A stretch of DNA of 64,000 nt from Acidobacteriota bacterium (GTDB lineage: Bacteria > Acidobacteriota > Terriglobia > UBA7540): contig JAKCCV010000001.1 in assembly GCA_021838785.1 (NCBI GenBank), positions 62,001-126,000 on the forward strand. Reading direction: 5' to 3'. The number at the start of each line of letters is the position of its first letter. The first letter of the stretch is position 1. This document shows positions 34,582 to 60,897 of this stretch, in pieces. The notes below the pieces were generated by a model. The model did not search any database, was not told where the DNA came from, and was given only the letters and a program-made list of their open reading frames with translations. The translations under genes and the position numbers were made by a program.

Positions 34582-34839
34582 CGCCAGTCGTTCTTGGACG
34601 GTCGCCCACGCGCCCGCCTCAAGCAGGCTTTCTACCCTCAATTACGCTGCACTCCTTAAACCCTTCTCTCCCGCCGAAAATGCCTGCCCAACGGTTGCCG
34701 AATCTCCGACTCCCTCTCACGGGCCGAGGCGACAGTGGCCGGGTTCCGATCCATCTTTGAGAGGGTGCTGCGCTCCCGAACTCAGGTGATTCGGGCCCGA
34801 GTTGAACGAAGAAAACACCTTCAGGCGAGCGCCTGGCTT

Positions 34840-34888
34840 AGATTGGCTCCTCGGGTAGGACTCGAACCTGCAACCCTTCGGTTAACAG
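34840..34888. repeat. Left attachment site (attL): displaced tRNA-Asn 3' half
   Basis: Matches 42361-42409 at 48 of 49 positions. The only difference (T for C at 34856) breaks a pair in the T stem, as expected for a copy no longer under selection. The tRNA 5' half is absent here, so this is not a working tRNA gene. Confidence 0.9.
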
Positions 34889-35031
34889 ATGCGCGGACAC
34901 CAATTTTCAAGCACTTACGATAGTTGGTGATAGAGTGCGACAAAGCGCGATTCGCCCGCTATTTATGCGCCTTCCGTGAGAGTCTGACGCCTTGCCTGAT
35001 AGTGATGGATTGTGACGGTTTTTTATCGGGG

Positions 35032-35058
35032 GGTACACCAAAAAGTACACCAAATTTC
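35032..35058. repeat. Left copy of 27-bp repeat, probable integrase arm site
   Basis: Identical to 42298-42324. Each copy contains two direct repeats of GTACACCAAA. The copies sit just inside the two element ends, about 145 bp from the left core and about 37 bp from the right core, the places where tyrosine recombinases bind arm-type sites. Confidence 0.65.
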
Positions 35059-35305
35059 CTTGCCCTGTTATGGTGCATTCGCGCCGGGCAGAGGGGGAGA
35101 GGATTGCCTTACCGTTTACCGTGACAGAGAGAATCGCACAGCGGGCCGCCAGGCTTCACGGCGGGGCATTCTACGCGGACTTTGGCTCGCCCGCCCGAAG
35201 ATGCCGGAAAAAAGTTCAGGATTCGACCCCCATACCCGTTCTTTTTGGCGGGCGATTTCGCGTCCGTTCCACTCTGCCCGTTAAAATTTCAACCCCTTAA
35301 GACCT

Positions 35306-35311
35306 TATAAT
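35306..35311 (+). promoter_or_regulatory. Candidate -10 element before the HTH gene
   Basis: A perfect TATAAT lies 42 bp before the ATG at 35354; the -35 is poor (TTAAAA around 35281). A half-site GCACCAAATTTC, related to the arm repeat, begins about 10 bp downstream and could be an operator. Confidence 0.35.
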
Positions 35312-35353
35312 CGTTGTGTGGCACCAAATTTCGTGAAGACGATTCCTTGGACA

Positions 35354-35692
35354 ATGAAAAATAAAACCGTGAGAAAATGCGGCAGACCACAAAAGTTAAC
35401 GCCCGAACTGGAGGACCGTTTCTTGGAGCGTTACGGCTGTTCACGCTCCAGCATTCAGAGCATCGCCGCAGAACTGGGGATTAGTGACAGGACCATTTAT
35501 CGCGCCCTCCGCCGGGACGCCCGCTTTCTTCAGCGTTACGAGCGCGCGAGCGACAATCATCTTTTCGTCTGGTTTGACCACTTCGATTCTTCCGAAAACT
35601 ATATCGGGAACATGGAACAGGCATGGAAGGATTGGCGAATTTTGTCAGCCCTCATCGCGCGGGCGCGCGAGGGCAGACCTAGTAGCTACTGA
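35354..35692 (+). CDS. Helix-turn-helix protein of the integrated element
   Basis: A 112-residue protein from the ATG at 35354; an upstream GTG at 35318 is less likely because it sits at the expected transcription start. Residues ~8-50 (CGRPQKLTPELEDRFLERYG, then SSIQSIAAELGISDRTIYRALRR) form a helix-turn-helix like those of phage terminase small subunits or invertase-type regulators. The rest contains an aromatic, acidic stretch (FVWFDHFDSSENYIGNM). Its end overlaps the end of the convergent membrane-protein gene by 7 bp. It could be a regulator or a TerS-like packaging protein. Confidence 0.6.
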   Translation: MKNKTVRKCGRPQKLTPELEDRFLERYGCSRSSIQSIAAELGISDRTIYRALRRDARFLQRYERASDNHLFVWFDHFDSSENYIGNMEQAWKDWRILSALIARAREGRPSSY

Positions 35693-36315
35693 GCCGGGCA
35701 ACTTGAATGTTTGAATGGGGCCGAGAGCCTTTCGGCGTCCGCCACGTAGCCCGTTGTCACGTCCTTAAGCTCGCACACGGGGTAATCCGGCGTGAAGCCC
35801 TGCGGAAGTTGCAAAAAAACGTACCGCACCTTGTCACCTTGAATCATACGAACGTTTTCGGGCGCATCCGACAGCGCCCAAACGGTCCCGTCATTCATGT
35901 AGACTTGCGGGCCGGTTGTCGCGTCCGCGGGATGCAAAAACACCGCACGCACGGTTGCAGTGCGGTTCGCCGTGTGCCGCTTCCAAAAGGGCGCGACCAC
36001 AAGGAAGATCGTACCAGCAATCAGGAAAAAAAACGCGAATCTTATCACGTCTCGCACAAACCTCAAAAGCAATTTCTCCTTTTCAAGCCAGAAGACTAGC
36101 TGCGCAAAACCCGCACCGCAAATTGCGCCGGTGACTAACGACTGTCGGACGGAATAGGTGCCAGAGCAAAAAATGAGGGCGGCTTCCCCGCCAAGCATCC
36201 CGCCAGTGCCCGTCCACCAAAGCCAGTTGCGAACGGCAGGTGCGGCCCGCAGAAAGGCACGCCCCAGCCTTTTCCATCGGGTCACATTTTTCGTGGAACG
36301 GATAATATCGGTCAT
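35686..36315 (-). CDS. Membrane protein of unknown function (element cargo)
   Basis: A 209-residue protein with three membrane spans in its first half (WLWWTGTGGMLGGEAALIF, SLVTGAICGAGFAQLVFWL, VIRFAFFFLIAGTIFLVVAPFW) and a ~95-residue soluble C-terminal domain (YMNDGTVWALSDAPENVRMIQGDKVRYVFLQLP). No family is recognised. It lies 30 bp after the exported-protein gene on the same strand, so the two are probably cotranscribed. Position in the element's non-replication part suggests cargo such as exclusion or defence, but nothing in the sequence proves it. Confidence 0.55.
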   Translation of the reverse strand: MTDIIRSTKNVTRWKRLGRAFLRAAPAVRNWLWWTGTGGMLGGEAALIFCSGTYSVRQSLVTGAICGAGFAQLVFWLEKEKLLLRFVRDVIRFAFFFLIAGTIFLVVAPFWKRHTANRTATVRAVFLHPADATTGPQVYMNDGTVWALSDAPENVRMIQGDKVRYVFLQLPQGFTPDYPVCELKDVTTGYVADAERLSAPFKHSSCPAQ

Positions 36316-36345
36316 CGCTAGTCACTTGATCGAGAATGTAACGCA

Positions 36346-37080
36346 CTATTTGTCCGGGGTCGGACTGATGGCAAACTTTTCCACCTTGATTACGGCGTAT
36401 TTCGAAACCTTCGCCTTGCCCCCCAACCTCTCCTTTGTGCCCACATATACCGACCATTCTCCGTGCTTCTCGCGTTCTAGGACCACATGCACGATTGGGC
36501 CTTCCTGCATGATGCAAGGGTGTTTGTGCATGAAAAGAGCGCCGTATCCCAATGTTCCCAAAGCCAAACCCTTTTGACGTTTTGAGTAACCTGAGGTACA
36601 TGCGAGGAAAATGAGGTGCCCCGAACGCCAAGCACCGTTTTTACTGAGGCTTTGTTTTGAGTCGGCAACCGCTAGCACGACTCCGCTCTTTACATCATGC
36701 AACTGGCGACAAAGTGTATTCGAGTAGGTGTCAATATCATAGCTCTTTGACTGACTGTAAGACGGGCTTGCTGTACCTTCCCCACTTTCTGTGCAGACTG
36801 TTCGAACGTGAACTTTCTGCTCGCCAGAAGCGAGCAATTCGGCGCTGATGAGCGCCCATCGCTGCTTTTTCTTGTGGCGTTGATTCTTCTTATGGTGCTC
36901 GACCCTCTGCCACTGCAGGAGCAGGTTGTTGAGATAAGATGTTTGTTCGGTTGCTGGGAGTTCAATGAAATTGGTTCTAGCTAGTTGATTAGGCGGTGTT
37001 TTGCCTATGCCGGCAGGTAAAAACGCTCCAAGCAATCCCAAGAGAACGGTAAGCAAGACCAGGAGAAACCGGCGCTTCAT
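36346..37080 (-). CDS. Exported protein of unknown function (element cargo)
   Basis: A 244-residue protein from the ATG at 37080, preceded by GAGAGGGGGAGAG. A signal peptide (KRRFLLVLLTVLLGLLGAFLPAGIG) leads to a helical basic stretch (WQRVEHHKKNQRHKKKQRW) and a beta-rich part with four or five scattered cysteines (VRTVCTESGEG, SNTLCRQLHD, IFLACTSGY, HKHPCIMQEG). No catalytic motif is recognised. It looks less GC-rich than neighbouring chromosomal genes. It probably acts with the membrane protein encoded next. Confidence 0.55.
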   Translation of the reverse strand: MKRRFLLVLLTVLLGLLGAFLPAGIGKTPPNQLARTNFIELPATEQTSYLNNLLLQWQRVEHHKKNQRHKKKQRWALISAELLASGEQKVHVRTVCTESGEGTASPSYSQSKSYDIDTYSNTLCRQLHDVKSGVVLAVADSKQSLSKNGAWRSGHLIFLACTSGYSKRQKGLALGTLGYGALFMHKHPCIMQEGPIVHVVLEREKHGEWSVYVGTKERLGGKAKVSKYAVIKVEKFAISPTPDK

Positions 37081-37336
37081 CTCTCCCCCTCTCAATGATT
37101 TTCAAACTGGACAGCATATACAAGGATCGCTCTATGGGTCCGCATTCTATCATATTTGTGCCTTCGAATTCCCGCTGTGCTCCTGCTGGACCCTCACCGT
37201 ACTTCCGGTCAACCCGCCCGTGGAAAGAATCGTATTACCTGCCATCTGCCGATTGAACGTAGGTCAACATAGCGCGAAGCTTGGGCGAGTCCTTGATGCA
37301 TCCGGGGAAAATACCGTGTTTCGCGCCCGGCTCGCG

Positions 37337-37822
37337 TCAGGGAGGCAAATCATCGTCAGTCACCAATGGGCCGGAAGCGTTGACGAATGCCCCGGGCTTT
37401 TCAACCTGCAATTCCAACCCCGCCTCGGCCAGCTTCGCCAAGATGTCCGCCAGTGGCGGGCAGTGGTAGCCTTCCGGCTTCGCCAGCCGCCGGGATAGAT
37501 CGGCAAGGTAGGCCCGGTAGAATTTCCCGGCATTCGTTACCACCCTCACCGGCGCAACCGCGAAGGGCGCTTGCTTGGGCTGGTAGGAAACCAACCGGAC
37601 GCCAGCGGGCAATGCCGCCTGGACTTCCTCAAGGGTCGGCGGCTGGCTCTCGCTATCACGGAGCATGGCCGCCAGAGCCTCGCGATTCCGGCGAAGCTCG
37701 CCGATAATCTCGCGGGCCTCTTGGCAGTCGGCGGGGATGCGGTAGCGGACGGTTTCGCCATGAAGGAATAGCTCCCCGCCACGCTCTCTGAGACGGTCAA
37801 TCGGGCTGGAAATTGCACTCAT
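37337..37822 (-). CDS. Element protein with TubC-N-like N-terminus
   Basis: A 161-residue protein whose start overlaps the replication protein's stop by 4 bp, so they are translationally coupled. The N-terminus (IDRLRERGGELFLHGETVRYRIP...AREIIGELRRNREALAAML) resembles the TubC-N docking fold often seen in small proteins encoded beside mobile-element primases. The C-terminal half has a hydrophobic alpha/beta pattern with RLVSYQPKQAPFAVAPVRVV. Function unknown. Confidence 0.55.
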   Translation of the reverse strand: MSAISSPIDRLRERGGELFLHGETVRYRIPADCQEAREIIGELRRNREALAAMLRDSESQPPTLEEVQAALPAGVRLVSYQPKQAPFAVAPVRVVTNAGKFYRAYLADLSRRLAKPEGYHCPPLADILAKLAEAGLELQVEKPGAFVNASGPLVTDDDLPP

Positions 37823-39678
37823 ATTTGACCCTCCTCGATGTCGGGAACAAGAATCGGTTTTTGCTCCGAAGTGGGAACAAGATTCCGCTCAATATCCATG
37901 CGGGTCTGAGCCGGTTTTTCCGTTTCTTGTTCCCTTGTTCCCGCTATATGTTGGGAACAAGAAAACGAGAAATGATAACGGTAGGGGTCACCACGTTTTC
38001 CACAGCCGTCGCGGAACACCTTGCCTTGCTCCACCAATTGCCGCAGCGCCCGCCTCACAAACTTGGTTTTGCCCTCTACCGCTTCGGTAATCTCCGGCTC
38101 GGTTTTCGGCTCCCCGGCTGCCTTTAAAAAATCGAGGATGTCGCCACTCAGGGTTTCGGTTTCGGCTTCCTCCCGCGTTCCGCCGGTGGAGAGGCGCTTC
38201 GTGTCGGGGTCAAACTGCAAAACAGTTTCCGGCATTTCCTCTCCAAGCCGTTGCACGGTTTGAATCGTCCTGTATCTTTCTGCGCGCTTGAGATAGATAA
38301 GTGTCGCTGGTATGGCGCCAAGGGCAGTTGACCCCAGCGGGGAATCGGTCGGGTCAGCTTTCGGTGCCTTGGACGAATGGTGAAGGAACATAATGTGCGT
38401 TCCCGTTTGGCGGGCCGCGTCAATCAAAGGGCCAAGCACGGCGTAGGTTTCCCCATAGGCTTTTTCGTCTTTGATTCGCGCCAGCCTGATAATTGGGTCA
38501 ATGACTACCAGCCGAGGTTTGTGCTCCAATACCAGCTCGCACAGCGCCCGGATGCCCTCCGGCGGCGCCGCCGCCACGTGAACGTCAATCGGCTCGGTTC
38601 CGTCCGCGCCCATCGCGCGGAAGTCCGCTTTGACGTCCTGCTCCCGCTCTTCGAGGGCGAGATAAATGCACTTACCTTGCTTTGTGGGAAGGCCCAAAAA
38701 CTCCTCGCCGCGAGAGAGCGCAAGGGCAAAGTTGCGGGCAAGGGTTCCCTTGCCGACTTTGGGCTTGGCGAACACGCCGGACACCGTGCCCGCGACAAGG
38801 CGGCCATCCCAAACGTACTCAAGTGGCACGTCCGGTTTTTTCAGTAGCTCGCCCAGCGGGATAAGCGTGAAGCCGTTCGCGTTGGCGGGTTTGTCGGGTT
38901 GCCACTTCGCCACGTCCGCCGGCGTCAGTTCGGGCGTGTCCGCAATCGCCGCAAGCAAAAGTTTTTTGCGCGTGGCGTCATCGGGCAGCTTTTCGCAGAA
39001 CTCCGTCAGGTCTTTCGCTTCGGGCAGCGCTTCAATCAGCTTGACGCTGGTACCAAGTCCAATCAGTGAACGCGCCACGTCGCGAGCATGAGCCAGGCCC
39101 GGCGGATCCGCGTCCGCAATGATTGCCACACGCTTCCCGCGAAGGAATTTCGAATATTCACCCTGCCACTTGCCCGCGCCGCCGGCGTTGCAGGTTGCCA
39201 CAAAGCCGAGCTTGGCCGCCGTCAGGCAGTCCTTTTCGCCCTCGCAAACTATGACAGACTGCGCTTTTATCACGGCAGGCAAGTTAAAGGGCACGTGCCG
39301 CACCCCGCTAACGTTCCAAACCCATTCGCCGTTGCCGTTCCGCCGCCGCTGGCGGAAACCCTTCGGCTCGTAACGGACAACCTGGTACAGCACCTTCCCA
39401 GTTTCATCCGTATAATCATAGGTTGCGACAATCCGGCTCTCGCCCACACCGTTGTTGCTCGGCTTGGAATCCCCGAACAAGTCGGCCATCGTCAGGCCCA
39501 GCGCCGCGAGAATCGCGCCCGTTTCACAACCGGCATGGCAATGCAGAAGAATTCGCCCATCACGCTCGGAAACGCTCAGGCTCGGATTGCGGTCATCATG
39601 GCTGGGGCAACGCGCAATCCAGCCGTCTTTGACGGGCCGAACGTGATCGAGACGCGCGAGAAGTTCGCGGACGGTCAT
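37819..39678 (-). CDS. Zinc-finger / Toprim / RecA-like ATPase replication protein
   Basis: A 619-residue protein from the ATG at 39678 (preceded by GCGAGGACGCA); an in-frame ATG at 39771 would add 31 residues and overlap the excisionase gene. A CHC2-type zinc finger uses C24, H27, C47 and C51. A Toprim domain follows (VIVCEGEKDCLTA, then VAIIADADPPG). The C-terminal RecA-like domain has a Walker A variant PKVGKGTLA near 300 and Walker B LVVIDPI near 389, as in RepA/AAA_25 helicases. It ends with a winged-helix-like part. It should prime and start replication of the excised element. Confidence 0.85.
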   Translation of the reverse strand: MTVRELLARLDHVRPVKDGWIARCPSHDDRNPSLSVSERDGRILLHCHAGCETGAILAALGLTMADLFGDSKPSNNGVGESRIVATYDYTDETGKVLYQVVRYEPKGFRQRRRNGNGEWVWNVSGVRHVPFNLPAVIKAQSVIVCEGEKDCLTAAKLGFVATCNAGGAGKWQGEYSKFLRGKRVAIIADADPPGLAHARDVARSLIGLGTSVKLIEALPEAKDLTEFCEKLPDDATRKKLLLAAIADTPELTPADVAKWQPDKPANANGFTLIPLGELLKKPDVPLEYVWDGRLVAGTVSGVFAKPKVGKGTLARNFALALSRGEEFLGLPTKQGKCIYLALEEREQDVKADFRAMGADGTEPIDVHVAAAPPEGIRALCELVLEHKPRLVVIDPIIRLARIKDEKAYGETYAVLGPLIDAARQTGTHIMFLHHSSKAPKADPTDSPLGSTALGAIPATLIYLKRAERYRTIQTVQRLGEEMPETVLQFDPDTKRLSTGGTREEAETETLSGDILDFLKAAGEPKTEPEITEAVEGKTKFVRRALRQLVEQGKVFRDGCGKRGDPYRYHFSFSCSQHIAGTREQETEKPAQTRMDIERNLVPTSEQKPILVPDIEEGQI

Positions 39679-39760
39679 TGCGTCCTCGCGTTTCCCGAAT
39701 CGCCCTCGGCGTTGCGCCGGTTCGCCCAACGCGGCACGGGCGACGGGTTCGCACAAAAGT

Positions 39761-39979
39761 TTAGCGGCCATCGGCGCACCTCGCGGGGACGCGAGTCATC
39801 AAACGCTGCGCCTCGCCCTCGAAAATGCGGACGGACTTGCCGACTTTCATGTAGTTAATTTTCCGCAACAAAACCCAGCGCCGGATCGTCGCGGGCCGGA
39901 CGTTCAACAGGGCGGCGAACTCTTCGACTCTAAGCAGCCGGCCCGTTCCACCATCATGCTGAATACCTAGATTTGTCAT
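39761..39979 (-). CDS. Excisionase-like / MerR-type DNA-binding protein
   Basis: A 72-residue protein from the ATG at 39979, which follows GGGAGGTGTTTCGT; the long frame upstream is rejected. The core (LLRVEEFAALLNVRPATIRRWVLLRKINYMKVGKSVRIFEGEAQRLM) is the winged-helix fold of Xis/AlpA-type proteins. It probably directs excision and may activate the element's genes. It lies just upstream of the replication gene in the same orientation. Confidence 0.75.
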   Translation of the reverse strand: MTNLGIQHDGGTGRLLRVEEFAALLNVRPATIRRWVLLRKINYMKVGKSVRIFEGEAQRLMTRVPARCADGR

Positions 39980-40095
39980 ACGAAACACCTCCCGATTGCG
40001 ATGGTCGGCGAGCACCGGGTAACAAGAAAACCCCGCAGGGTCGAAAAATTCTTTGTAAACTTCTGATTTGAAAGGGGATATAATTTTTTTATGGG

Positions 40096-40803
40096 TTAGA
40101 TTTTCAAGGTTTGAGATTTGGATGAAGCCTGGGCAAGTTCTTGCTTGACCGCCTCGTGAATGCTGAACATATCCCAAACTTCTGAAGCCTCAAACTGACG
40201 TTGGAAGGCAGCTTCCATCCGCTGGACACTTTCGTAGGCAAAGAAGCGTTGTAGAGCGTTTTCTGATATGTAGCCGGCGTCTTCGCGGGCGGCATGGGCC
40301 AGTTCAACAAGCTCTGCCATTGTGAGATGAACGCCGCGGGCTTTTGCTCCAGCGCGCACTATTATCAAGAATTCTTTGCCGTCGTATCGCTTGACATTCT
40401 GCCGGGCCTTGCCGTTGTCAATAGTGGCCTCTTGCAAGGTTAGATTGCCAATGACAGGGTAGGCCGCCGAAGCATCGGCAAGTGTCTTTACTGCGGGGTT
40501 TTCGTAGGGCCATCTCGTGGTTGCGGCATTCTCCAGGACTTTCTCAAGCTTCCGTCGCGAGCCTCTCACTTGTTCCCGATCTGCCTTGATGGCATCTCTC
40601 AGCTTTTTTAACGCACGAGTGGTTTCACGAAGTCCGCGTCTTACAGGGCGCTTGAAAGGACGCCAGACAGCGTAGCAATAAAGGTGAAACTTTATGAAGT
40701 CCAGCAGGCCGGCACAGCGGAGCTTCTCCCATGCCTTCAAGCCATGAGGCTGCTGTTTGAGTCTTTCGATAAATCCTTGTTCCCACTCGCGCGGGTCTTT
40801 CAT
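40096..40803 (-). CDS. Unrecognised element protein
   Basis: A 235-residue protein; I choose the ATG at 40803 (GGGAGATGGC before it). The frame extends to 40920, but that part contains a perfect TATAAT (minus strand, 40906-40911) and does not look like protein. The product is mostly helical and charged, with RRGLRETTRALKKLRDAIKADREQVRGSRRKLEKVLEN, and a C-terminal part with TMAELVELAHAAREDAGYIS. No family recognised. Confidence 0.5.
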   Translation of the reverse strand: MKDPREWEQGFIERLKQQPHGLKAWEKLRCAGLLDFIKFHLYCYAVWRPFKRPVRRGLRETTRALKKLRDAIKADREQVRGSRRKLEKVLENAATTRWPYENPAVKTLADASAAYPVIGNLTLQEATIDNGKARQNVKRYDGKEFLIIVRAGAKARGVHLTMAELVELAHAAREDAGYISENALQRFFAYESVQRMEAAFQRQFEASEVWDMFSIHEAVKQELAQASSKSQTLKI

Positions 40804-40905
40804 GCCATCTCCCGCATGGCTCCCGGTTTTGGAATGAGGGCGGAAGGCGAGCCGGGATGCGCTCACCTTGTCGGCGGCCAACCTATCCGCCCTTGTTTCA
40901 GAATA

Positions 40906-40911
40906 ATTATA
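40906..40911 (-). promoter_or_regulatory. Candidate -10 element of the leftward element operon
   Basis: A perfect TATAAT on the minus strand about 100 bp before the ATG at 40803. The -35 position is AT-rich without a clear match. It would drive the unknown gene, the excisionase-like gene and the replication gene. Confidence 0.35.
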
Positions 40912-40973
40912 CACCCACATTTCCCCTTATTTTTCTCTTGACAAACCGAAATAGTTTAGGTTAGTTTTGAGGC

Positions 40974-41198
40974 ATGACAAAGCGCGAACTTCGGGAATTC
41001 ACAAGCTGGCTTGGCAAGCGAAGCTATAAGGCAAGGCTGGAGAGGCTAGGCTTGGAGCGAATCCAAGAGATTGCCCGCAAGAATGGCGAACAAGGCGGAA
41101 GGCCGCGCAAGCCGCTTAGCCAGCTTTCAGCCGCCGGGAAGTATCAGCGGCTCCGGCGGGAAAAAGCCAAGGAACGGAGGGAAGTGAGATGGCGCTAA
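40974..41198 (+). CDS. Small basic protein upstream of the integrase
   Basis: A 74-residue, strongly basic protein (TKRELREFTSWLGKRSYKARLERLG, ending EKAKERREVRWR). The ATG follows TTGAGGC. Its end overlaps the integrase start by 10 bp, so the two are coupled. The composition suggests nucleic-acid binding, perhaps a recombination accessory factor. No family recognised. Confidence 0.55.
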   Translation: MTKRELREFTSWLGKRSYKARLERLGLERIQEIARKNGEQGGRPRKPLSQLSAAGKYQRLRREKAKERREVRWR

Positions 41199-42358
41199 AA
41201 CGACGCGGGAAGGGCGGCATCTGGTGGTACAGCTTCAAATTCGGCGGACGGCGGATTCATGAAAGCAGCAAGTCCACAAGCCGGACCGTAGCCCGTGAAG
41301 CCGAGAAGCAGCGCCGTCGCCAGCTTGAAGAGAGTTTCAACCAACTTACCAGGCGGACCTTGCCACCAACGTTCGAGAAAGCCTCTGCCGATTGGCTGGA
41401 AATCAAGCGCCCGCACCTTGCGCCGCGAAGCGTGGAAATTGAGCAAGCCAACCTTGCGCACCTACTGCCGGTTTTCGGCGGGTGGCTGATTACCGACATC
41501 ACCGCCGCGAGCGTTGCGAGGTACCAGCAAGGCCGGATTGCCGAAGGCGCGTCACCCAAGACAATCAACTTGGAAGTCGGCACGGTCCGCGCCATCCTGC
41601 GCCGTCACAAGCTGTGGACCAACCTTCAGGTGGACGTGAAGATGCTTCCAACCCGTGATGACATCGGGCAAGCCCTCAGCCATGAGCAAGAATCCCGGTT
41701 GCTCGAAGAATGCAGCAAGAGCCGTTCACGGTCACTCTATCCCGCCGTGGTTTTAGCCCTATCTACCACGATGCGCTATTCCGAGATTCGACTTCTTAAG
41801 TGGAAGCAGGTTGACTTCATCGGCAGGCGGGTGTGGGTCGGCAAGAGCAAGACGGAGTATGGCGAGGGTAGGCCGATCCCGATGAATGATCGGGCCTTCC
41901 AGGTGATGACGATGTGGGCGGAGACATTCCCGAATCGCCAGCCGGAGCATTACGTGTTCCCAACCGAGAAGTACGGAGCCGCCGGGGATAAGTTCACGCC
42001 TTGCGCTTACGCTACCGACTCCACAAAGCCGATTGGCGATTGGAAAGAAGCATGGGAAGCCGCCCGCGAACGCGCCGGGCTATCCTGCCGGTTTCATGAT
42101 CTCCGTCACACGGCTTGCACGCGGATGCTTGAATCCGGCACGCCGCTTTCCGTTGTGGCTACCATCATGGGATGGAGTCCATCTACCACGGTGAGGATGA
42201 GCCGCCGGTACGGTCACATCGGGCAGGCCGCCCAACTTGAAGCGGTTCGGGCGCTAAATGGTCAAGGCTGTGGAAAAGTACCCAATTTTAGGGGCGAGGT
42301 ACACCAAAAAGTACACCAAATTTCAGGCGAGAAAAACGCCTCAGCCGTAACCAATTGA
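41189..42358 (+). CDS. int: Tyrosine-family site-specific integrase
   Basis: A 389-residue recombinase. An N-terminal arm-binding region (RRGKGGIWWYSFKFGGRRIHESSKSTSRTVAREAE) and a SAM-like core-binding domain precede the catalytic domain. Catalytic residues are R196 (TTMRYSEIR), H303 and R306 (HDLRHT), W329 in place of the second His (GWSPST), and Y341 (RRYGHIG). The last ~25 residues are encoded by the arm-type repeat, giving VHQKVHQI. Its stop lies 6 bp before the 3' end of tRNA-Asn, the site it recombines. Confidence 0.93.
   Translation: MALKRRGKGGIWWYSFKFGGRRIHESSKSTSRTVAREAEKQRRRQLEESFNQLTRRTLPPTFEKASADWLEIKRPHLAPRSVEIEQANLAHLLPVFGGWLITDITAASVARYQQGRIAEGASPKTINLEVGTVRAILRRHKLWTNLQVDVKMLPTRDDIGQALSHEQESRLLEECSKSRSRSLYPAVVLALSTTMRYSEIRLLKWKQVDFIGRRVWVGKSKTEYGEGRPIPMNDRAFQVMTMWAETFPNRQPEHYVFPTEKYGAAGDKFTPCAYATDSTKPIGDWKEAWEAARERAGLSCRFHDLRHTACTRMLESGTPLSVVATIMGWSPSTTVRMSRRYGHIGQAAQLEAVRALNGQGCGKVPNFRGEVHQKVHQISGEKNASAVTN
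42298..42324. repeat. Right copy of 27-bp repeat, inside the integrase gene
   Basis: Identical to 35032-35058 and placed in the last codons of the integrase gene, so the probable arm site doubles as coding sequence. Confidence 0.65.
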
Positions 42359-42360
42359 CA

Positions 42361-42409
42361 AGATTGGCTCCTCGGGCAGGACTCGAACCTGCAACCCTTC
42401 GGTTAACAG
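42361..42409. repeat. Right attachment site (attR) within tRNA-Asn
   Basis: The 49-bp core covers the tRNA 3' end, T arm and anticodon loop, and continues 4 bp beyond the CCA. Strand exchange should occur in or near the anticodon-stem part, as for many tRNA-targeting integrases. Confidence 0.88.
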
Positions 42410-42439
42410 CCGAATGCTCTACCATTGAGCTACCGAGGA
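42365..42439 (-). tRNA. tRNA-Asn(GTT)
   Basis: On the minus strand the acceptor TCCTCGG pairs with CCGAGGA. The D arm is GCTC/GAGC and the anticodon loop CTGTTAA gives anticodon GTT. The T arm is GCAGG-TTCGAGT-CCTGC, and the 3' CCA is encoded. The gene stays intact because the element restores its 3' half. Confidence 0.95.
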
Positions 42440-42548: not shown

Positions 42549-42737
42549 TTACGGAAGTTTTTTCGGCTCTTCTTTGTGCTCGTCCGTTCCGGCCATGCCA
42601 CCGCGGAGAGCGTCCTTAAACTCGCGGATTCCCTTGCCGAGCCCTTTACCCAGTTCAGGCAACTTGCCTGGCCCAAACAGGATGAGGACAATCAGCAATA
42701 TGAAGAAAAGGTGAACTGGCTCTAACAGTCCGTCCAT
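42549..42737 (-). CDS. tatA: Twin-arginine translocase subunit TatA (copy 2)
   Basis: A 62-residue protein with one membrane helix (LFFILLIVLILFGPGKLPELGKGLG), the FGPGKLPELG hinge and an amphipathic helix (KGIREFKDALRGGMAG). It starts after AAGGAGATTGCA. TatA multimers form the pore for folded proteins. The partner tatC is not in the window. Its second half is almost identical in DNA to the neighbouring copy. Confidence 0.93.
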   Translation of the reverse strand: MDGLLEPVHLFFILLIVLILFGPGKLPELGKGLGKGIREFKDALRGGMAGTDEHKEEPKKLP

Positions 42738-42775
42738 TGCAATCTCCTTCCTGTGCCCAGAGGACGACGAGCTGT

Positions 42776-42961
42776 TTACGCCTTCTTCTCTTCTTCTTTG
42801 CGCTCGTCCGTTCCCGCCATGCCACCGCGGAGAGCGTCCTTAAACTCACGGATTCCCTTGCCGAGCCCTTTGCCCAGTTCCGGCAATTTGCCCGGTCCAA
42901 AGAGAATCAGCACAATGAGCAGAATAAAAAAAAGGTGGATTGGTTGCAACAACCCGTCCAT
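42776..42961 (-). CDS. tatA: Twin-arginine translocase subunit TatA (copy 1)
   Basis: A 61-residue paralogue with the same helix, hinge and amphipathic region; the ATG at 42961 follows GGAAGGAGATGCTG, so the eight-residue upstream extension is rejected. The charged tail differs slightly (DERKEEEKKA). The two genes lie 38 bp apart and are probably transcribed together. Confidence 0.93.
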   Translation of the reverse strand: MDGLLQPIHLFFILLIVLILFGPGKLPELGKGLGKGIREFKDALRGGMAGTDERKEEEKKA

Positions 42962-43037
42962 CAGCATCTCCTTCCGGCGCCTCAAACGCTGCGCTGGTTA
43001 CGACCTCATTATAGCGCAAACGTTTCGGCGGATATAG

Positions 43038-59349: not shown

Positions 59350-60651
59350 TTAGGAAGCCACCTGCTGAAGAGTCTCGAAGAATTGCGGAAAGGAAATTTT
59401 GACCGAATCGGATTCGCTCAGCACCGTTGGGCCTTCGGCAATCAGTCCCGCGACGGCGAAGGCCATCGCAATGCGGTGGTCGCCGAAAGTGTTAATGGAG
59501 GCGCCGCGCAATTTTTGTCGGCCGGCCACGCGCAAGCCGTCGGGAAATTCTTCCACCTCGGCGCCCAGGCGACGCAGATTCTCGGCCACGGCGGCCAGTC
59601 GGTCGCTTTCCTTAACGCGCAATTCCTCCGCGCCGTGGAAGCTCAGCCCCGACTCGGTTTGCGTTCCGAGCACGGCCAGCACCGGCAACTCATCAATCAA
59701 CCCCGGCACCGTCTCGCGCGGAATCTCGCCGCCGCGAAGCGTGCTCGATTCCACCCGGACGTCCCCGATGAGCTCGCCCTGCAGCATTTCCATATTCACT
59801 ACCTTCACCCGCCCGCCCATGTCCGTCACCCACTGGAGCATGGCGGTTCGCGTCGGATTCAGCCCCACATTTTCCAGCACCAACTCCGACCCCGGCACCA
59901 TCAACGCCGCGGCGATAAAGAAAGCGGCGGAGGAGATGTCACCCGGAACATAAAGTTTCTGCCCGCGCAGCCGCGCCGGCCCTTCCAGGCGAATCGTCCC
60001 ACCGTGACGCCCGATGGTGGCGCCCATCCATTCCAGAGCAATTTCCGTGTGGTCGCGGGTTTGGGCGGGTTCGCTCACCTCCGTCGCGCCTTCCGCGAAA
60101 ACCCCGGCCAGCAGCACGGCCGTTTTCACCTGCGCGCTCGCCACCGGCATTTCGTAGTGAATCGGAGAAAGCTTGGCGCCTTCAATCTCGACCGGCGGCA
60201 GCCCGCCCGGTTGCAAGTGAACCTTGGCCCCCATGCGGATGAGCGGCTCGGCAATGCGCTTCATCGGTCGGCGGGAGAGCGACCGATCCCCCACCAACCT
60301 CGACCGAAACGGTTGCGCCGCCAGGATGCCCGAAAGCATCCGCATGGTTGAGCCGGAATTGCCCGCATCAAGGTCTCTTGTCGGCGCGCGCCATCCCTCC
60401 AAACCCACTCCTTCAATCGAGACCGCGCTCCCCTGCCGACGGCAATTCACCCCCAACCGCTCCAGGCAATTGAGCGTGGATTGGCAATCCTCCGCCGTCG
60501 AATAAAAGTGAATTTCGCTTGGGCCTTCCGCCAGCGCCGCCAGCATCGCGTAGCGGTGGGAGATGGATTTATCCCCCGGAAAGCGCGCCCGCCCTTGCAG
60601 TCGTTTGACCGGTTCGATTTTTTTTGCGCTGCCCTGACTTAAAAAACTCAC
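59350..60651 (-). CDS. aroA: 3-phosphoshikimate 1-carboxyvinyltransferase (EPSP synthase)
   Basis: A 433-residue enzyme of the shikimate pathway that joins PEP and shikimate 3-phosphate. The GTG at 60651 follows TCAAGGAGCAGG and is preferred to a TTG at 60735. Active-site segments are FPGDKSISHRYAMLAALAEG, LDAGNSGSTMRMLSGILA (the motif region that also contacts PEP), VASAQVKTAVLLAG, EELRVKESDRLAAVAENL and GDHRIAMAFAVAG. Length and motif order fit the family. Confidence 0.95.
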   Translation of the reverse strand: MSFLSQGSAKKIEPVKRLQGRARFPGDKSISHRYAMLAALAEGPSEIHFYSTAEDCQSTLNCLERLGVNCRRQGSAVSIEGVGLEGWRAPTRDLDAGNSGSTMRMLSGILAAQPFRSRLVGDRSLSRRPMKRIAEPLIRMGAKVHLQPGGLPPVEIEGAKLSPIHYEMPVASAQVKTAVLLAGVFAEGATEVSEPAQTRDHTEIALEWMGATIGRHGGTIRLEGPARLRGQKLYVPGDISSAAFFIAAALMVPGSELVLENVGLNPTRTAMLQWVTDMGGRVKVVNMEMLQGELIGDVRVESSTLRGGEIPRETVPGLIDELPVLAVLGTQTESGLSFHGAEELRVKESDRLAAVAENLRRLGAEVEEFPDGLRVAGRQKLRGASINTFGDHRIAMAFAVAGLIAEGPTVLSESDSVKISFPQFFETLQQVAS

Positions 60652-60816
60652 CCTGCTCCTTGATGGCTCCGTCCTGTGGCAACCTCCGCCGCGCTTGAAC
60701 GTCCCGCTGAAGAATTCACATTCTTCCCCCGCCAACTCCGCCGCGAGCGTTCTTCCTACTTTACTATAACTGCCCTATCGTCATCTCGCCGAGCGTGTTA
60801 TATTCGGCGTGTTGGC

Positions 60817-60890
60817 GGGCCTGTAGCTCAGGTGGATAGAGCATCTGCCTTCTAAGCAGAGGGTCGGGAGTTCGAGTCTCCCCAGGCCCG
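60817..60890 (+). tRNA. tRNA-Arg(TCT)
   Basis: The acceptor GGGCCTG pairs with CAGGCCC. The D arm contains AGCTCAGGTGGATAGAGC and the anticodon arm TCTGC-CTTCTAA-GCAGA gives anticodon TCT. The T arm is GGGAG-TTCGAGT-CTCCC. The 3' CCA is not encoded (CAG follows the discriminator). Hairpin repeats begin 7 bp after the gene. Confidence 0.95.
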
Positions 60891-60897
60891 CAGTCGG

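Follow-up and report, generated by a model that had tools for sequence, protein, structure and literature searches.

The stretch of DNA analyzed here (64,000 nt of a contig from an Acidobacteriota bacterium; the window) carries, as a single copy in the host genome, a 7.5-kb element integrated in a tRNA-Asn gene (Table 1). The sequence-only reading of this DNA had described a 49-nt direct repeat with an intact tRNA-Asn on the right and a displaced tRNA 3′ half on the left, and repeat comparison, ARAGORN and Rfam recovered all three exactly where it had placed them. The two repeat copies are identical at 48/49 positions and extend from the anticodon loop to four bases beyond the tRNA 3′ end; ARAGORN called no tRNA at the left copy, and an Rfam search returned nothing except the tRNA. 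The sole mismatch, in the T stem, is a T in the left copy and a C in the right copy, and since the intact tRNA-Asn genes of two same-genus genomes (G001 and G003) carry C, the left relic is the drifted copy, as had been proposed. The crossover point is the anticodon loop, the usual position for a tRNA-targeting integrase, and at the level of sequence this arrangement demonstrates insertion by tyrosine-integrase recombination at that loop, with the tRNA 3′ half being swapped. A second, partial tRNA-Asn copy is found in about ten related genomes and stops at one and the same base (near query position 70, corresponding to window position 42409); examples lie 9.3 kb (G011), 10.2 kb (G024) and 20 kb (G055) from the tRNA-Asn. 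This recurrence marks tRNA-Asn as a recurrent insertion hotspot and puts the 49-nt repeat far beyond chance.

Table 1. Features of the integrated element and its target, with positions in the window.
Feature	Position	Strand	Basis or remark
Far att core: displaced native tRNA-Asn 3′ half, one base drifted (T stem)	34840..34888	-	repeat comparison
Distal arm-type site pair GGTACACCAAAAAGTACACCAAATTTC, tandem, period about 12	35032..35058	+	143 nt inside far core
HTH protein, 124 aa, weakly like Sf6-type terminase small subunit; alternative ATG start 35354	35318..35692	+	family, PDB and phage searches
Predicted membrane protein, 209 aa, cargo, without family match	35686..36315	-	
249-aa protein, signal-like N terminus, cargo, without family match	36346..37095	-	
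Primase companion, 161 aa, kept behind the primase in several related elements	37337..37822	-	
Primase-helicase: CHC2 zinc finger, TOPRIM, AAA_25	37819..39771	-	domain matches
HTH_17/excisionase-family (AlpA/Xis-like) protein, 72 aa	39761..39979	-	domain matches
274-aa protein, between int and the HTH_17 gene	40096..40920	-	
74-aa ORF, overlaps int start by 10 nt	40974..41198	+	
Tyrosine integrase (int); residues 1-57 arm-binding domain, rest core-binding/catalytic	41189..42358	+	domain matches, integrase comparison
Proximal arm-type site pair, same letters as distal	42298..42324	+	36 nt from int-side core
IHF/HU-type site TGTCAATTGGTTA, one mismatch to WATCAANNNNTTR, lambda H′-like position	42348..42360	-	motif match
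Int-side att core, source of the working tRNA's 3′ half	42361..42409	-	repeat, ARAGORN
Intact tRNA-Asn(gtt), rebuilt by insertion	42365..42439	-	ARAGORN, Rfam

The integrase scored 97.5 bits against PF00589 (cut-off 27.1), while the 72-aa protein scored 32.1 bits against PF12728 (HTH_17; cut-off 27) and also passed the NCBIfam excisionase cut-off. Repeat and domain matches thus bear out the earlier description of an element with exact ends, an adjoining tyrosine integrase and its own replication gene, the CHC2/TOPRIM/AAA_25 primase-helicase. A small ORF overlapping int also occurs in the related elements L105 and L106, with an overlap of 4 nt. Family profile searches with the element's nine proteins gave no match to relaxase, capsid, portal or large-terminase families, nor did any of these proteins match a capsid, portal or protease, and relaxase or conjugation genes were absent from the Pfam and NCBIfam results. 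No viral relative was found for the 274-aa protein, and the two cargo proteins (209 and 249 aa) had no match in a defence library. The earlier statement that virion and conjugation genes are lacking stands in these respects, but one gene is weakly like a terminase small subunit (TerS).

This 124-aa protein found its best virus family in terminase small subunits (phrog_1482, 4.8e-8), its best PDB chains include Sf6-type small terminases (E 0.03), and among 50,697 phage records it matched just one protein, a small terminase encoded directly before a large terminase (E 0.01). A single-sequence AlphaFold model had a pLDDT of 60, and Foldseek with this model returned no match below E 0.001. The gene is confined to the window element. 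Given these weak matches, it is plausible that the protein is a TerS. Two further candidate matches were set aside: a viral one (L125), which runs across frames containing stops, and one to the defence protein mad1, which was the window's sole hit in the defence library, covers 23 residues only and was judged a generic HTH match.

Besides this far-end gene, the otherwise sound sequence-only reading had overlooked a perfect 27-nt direct repeat, with identical copies near both ends of the element. Such an arm-type pair was the best repeat between the inner ends in 12 of 13 elements when the window element is counted (11/12 relatives), and in those 12 both copies are themselves tandems with a period of 11-12. 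The copy next to int ends 28-46 nt short of its core, and 105-147 nt separate the far core from the start of the other copy. The exception is L045, which retains only an integrase remnant. Own-pair scores were 12-27, compared with maxima of 10-12 after shuffling; the weakest pairs, those of L129 and L131, lie narrowly above their own shuffles, yet their geometry fits. In 399 genomes the window arm motif occurs 4 times (reversed control, 0): two of these copies lie in the window element, one is next to the G031 integrase and one next to the G033 integrase. At 15 of 19 sites, a match to WATCAANNNNTTR that differs by no more than one base sits about 4 nt from the end of the tRNA, always in a single orientation; in 2000 base shuffles such matches averaged 0.77 and never exceeded 4. 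Lambda has its H′ site at this position. A search of the far side of the core turned up no consistent IHF-like site, a copy of at most one mismatch being present only in the window element and L105.

The element therefore has what defines an element with an arm-binding tyrosine integrase, namely the integrase, a duplicated att core and arm-type repeats on both sides, and its predicted attP is lambda-like, with a core, an adjoining IHF/HU-type site and paired arm-type sites to either side. It shares with attP sites of the lambda and mycobacteriophage L5 type the N-terminal arm-binding domain and the arm-type repeat pairs flanking the core (PMC3203893), and the arm repeats are in direct orientation, as in L5 and Giles (PMC3203893). 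The IHF-type site by the core, known here from sequence alone, is as in lambda; unlike in a lambda-type attP, the far-side IHF-like sites are inconsistent in the element family. In G031, a HicB/HicA-like toxin-antitoxin pair (L107 7460-7905; G031:C153) separates the integrase from its arm site, which therefore falls outside the integrase gene there.

In the genome collection the primase-helicase is present at 44 loci, of which the nearest all belong to Acidobacteriota. Loci related through the primase or the integrase include at least 12 further tRNA-integrated elements of 5.6-13.8 kb whose two ends both carry a tRNA duplication; they lie in tRNA-Asn (L044, 9.3 kb; L103, 10.0 kb; and the degenerate L045, 10.2 kb, with a broken integrase), tRNA-Lys (L105, 13.8 kb; L106, 7.1 kb; L148, 7.4 kb), tRNA-Glu (L129, 5.6 kb; L131, 10.4 kb), tRNA-Gly (L128, 8.6 kb), tRNA-Arg (L137, 6.2 kb), tRNA-Ala (L134, 12.8 kb) and tRNA-Pro (L109, 7.8 kb). 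Their common layout runs from the tRNA through int, a Xis/AlpA-like HTH gene and a replication gene to variable cargo, with an HTH_17 gene close to the integrase in many of them. The replication gene is a primase-helicase or, as read from the sequence of L105, a DnaB-like helicase. In a tRNA-Glu element of G031, a related primase (58%) and companion gene (65%) lie behind an integrase that is only 27% identical, and modules have therefore been exchanged. Several relatives carry anti-phage systems, and among the cargo of relatives are restriction enzymes of types IIG and III as well as PDC-S60, PDC-S37/Hhe-like and FRG/PDC-S15 proteins. Sequence comparison thus places the window element in a so far unnamed Acidobacteriota family with varied tRNAs and swappable cargo. 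A remnant of a temperate phage, immobile now and stripped of its structural genes, would account for the phage-like integrase, excisionase-like and replication genes, for the remaining TerS-like gene and for the one-base drift of the displaced tRNA copy. We consider this origin very improbable: independent decay would not produce a dozen elements of this size range that share one compact layout and precise ends across different tRNAs, and the arm sites are intact, unlike in L045 with its broken integrase.

Among described mobile elements, the PICMIs of Vibrionaceae, in which int, alpA, an int-overlapping gene and a primase are needed for satellite-particle production, share with the window element a small size, a core of int, int-overlapping gene, HTH_17/AlpA regulator and primase, a lack of capsid genes and few cargo genes (PMC10803314). 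The integrase (PF00589) and AlpA (PF05930 or PF12728) of the published PICMI model are both present. The window element is nonetheless not a PICMI, because the primase family and the site fail that model: the PICMI primase is of the DUF3987/DUF5906 type and insertion is downstream of fis, in a different phylum. PICMIs are also phage-inducible, whereas the window element was compared by genes alone. Gram-negative PICIs likewise have int, an alpA-type regulator, a replication gene and sometimes terS, without structural or lysis genes, but they are about 15 kb in size, while the window element, compared by genes alone, is 7.5 kb with a weak TerS assignment (PMC6092414). The set that defines a PICI (int, an alpA/merR-type regulator and a replication gene, with structural and lysis genes absent) was found in the window element. 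Its nine proteins include no P4-like satellite genes (psu, delta, sid, alpha primase), it has no capsid genes of its own as a cfPICI would, and Pfam and NCBIfam revealed none of the relaxase or conjugation genes of an ICE or IME. Tycheposons of marine picocyanobacteria are tRNA-integrated and combine a tyrosine recombinase and a replication gene with exchangeable cargo. By description they are alike in those traits, in hosts that differ from that of the window element (the name is given in PMC11389934).

The reading we favor, and hold to be reasonably probable, is that of a non-autonomous, satellite-like integrative element that is built like PICMIs and PICIs but is not a member. The N-domain of the integrase would link arm sites and core in a bridge, excision upon induction would be directed by the HTH_17 protein, and the excised circle would be copied by the primase-helicase; transfer would need a helper, most likely a phage, and the TerS-like protein might mark the element for packaging. 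This reading is argued for by the att repeat in the tRNA, the gene families and the 12 further precise elements with other tRNAs, by the arm geometry (12/13), the IHF-like site (15/19) and the confinement of the arm motif to these elements, and by the relatives' anti-phage cargo, the PICMI-like gene layout and the TerS-like protein. The integrase together with its own replication gene would also suit an integrative plasmid-like element, or an IME, that spreads through natural transformation or through conjugation in trans and not by phage; relatives of the primase do occur on plasmids (at most about 36% identity), and neither the window integrase nor its arm motif matched IMG/VR contigs. Such a route seems rather unlikely to us, given that no relaxase or other mobilisation family is present, that the relatives' cargo is anti-phage and not plasmid maintenance, and that one gene is TerS-like. 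For a satellite-like element, a helper is conceivable in the host itself, in a prophage-like region (L255/L256; G000:C38, about 178-202 kb) with a large terminase, apparent capsid and tail genes and a Mu-like look, to which a specific link was sought and none found. The host genome's only match to one large-terminase family lies in a Mu-like-looking region.

The sequence-only reading had looked to related genomes for an empty site joining 34839 to 42410. In G001 and G003 the tRNA-Asn is intact on the same right flank (tatA copies in both, with CYTH and prenyl-synthase genes also in G003), a flank that is also present in G012, G016 and G025; the 7.3 kb downstream of the G001 tRNA-Asn contain no integrase, and the element's primase is absent from both genomes. 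However, no genome joins 34839 to 42410. The window's left flank, with its DsbA-like gene, sits elsewhere in G001 and G003, and no conserved left flank was found in the sister genomes. Since the left flank is rearranged there, the junction is not visible, which is a limit of the sister genomes and no evidence against the element. In G003, methyltransferase and Vsr-type genes come after the DsbA-like gene, and beyond them stand tRNA-Arg and aroA, both in reversed orientation. This order suggests that the DNA between the tRNA-Asn end and the tRNA-Arg end has been inverted; such an inversion with respect to G003 may account for some of the rearrangement. By its neighbors, the element's spot beside the DsbA-like gene looks like a variable defence locus. 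The drifted left repeat copy would also be expected of a fixed, immobile genomic island retained for its cargo, an account made highly improbable by the intact integrase, the perfect 27-nt arm pair and the absence of the element from same-genus G001 and G003. Against the satellite-like reading, for its part, stand the IMG/VR negatives, a weak TerS-like gene unique to the element and the unseen empty site.

When window 34582-60891 was compared with L100 (G003:C40:1400-7981), aroA and tRNA-Arg (window 59350-60891) lay close to the G003 DsbA-like gene, downstream of which are methyltransferase, ParB-like and Vsr-type genes; a Cas9-like ORF lies downstream of the DsbA-like gene in L099 (G001:C16:1-3540). 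Beside the tRNA-Asn, window 42549-42985 holds two tandem tatA-like genes with 83% identity over 199 nt, a tandem also found in G001, G003, G008, G016, G024 and G033.

The integrases of the family fall into two parts. The G031 integrase in tRNA-Ile, which shares its arm sites with the window element, is 95% identical to the window integrase over residues 1-57 and 45% over the remainder. The integrases of L105 (Lys) and L108 (Ile) are related in the same way, at 87% in the N-domain and 44% beyond it, and identity falls near residue 60 in both pairs. Across 13 integrases, in a test made without the mistranslated L129 row of the first integrase matrix, arm similarity tracked the N-domain (rho 0.73, p 0.0005) and similarity of the tRNA tracked the rest of the protein (rho 0.71, p 0.0005), while the crossed correlations were 0.19 (p 0.06) and -0.01; these p values are optimistic because the sequences are related. 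The two chimeric pairs alone make the point that the integrase parts appear to be exchanged separately. How integrases change target has been approached mostly via laboratory chimeras and the lambda/HK022 pair. The double dissociation seen here, of N-domain with arm sites and of catalytic part with tRNA, offers a natural series in which to test such changes. That integrases have arm-binding domains and that arm sites come in pairs is well established (PMC3203893); what is new here is the apparent natural exchange of these parts inside one element family.

It is a tentative possibility, and one we would not yet bank on, that the family constitutes an undescribed phage-satellite lineage native to Acidobacteriota that, in nature, changes its tRNA site by exchanging the core-binding and catalytic part of the integrase, while keeping the arm-binding domain and matching arm sites, and that carries anti-phage cargo. 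A search of one paper collection for phage satellites and Acidobacteria together found no paper. Much of the mobile DNA that is still unexplained is made up of small elements that sit in tRNA genes and lack genes for virions or conjugation, and the exact ends, readable attP and defined core gene set make a systematic search for this family possible. Among the cargo of relatives, the tRNA-Glu element L131 (13266-16647) encodes several proteins without a family match, one of which, on inspection by eye only, resembles a scaffold or tail protein of virions, and the tRNA-Gly element L128 (13450-14304) carries a ClpP/head-maturation-protease-like protein.
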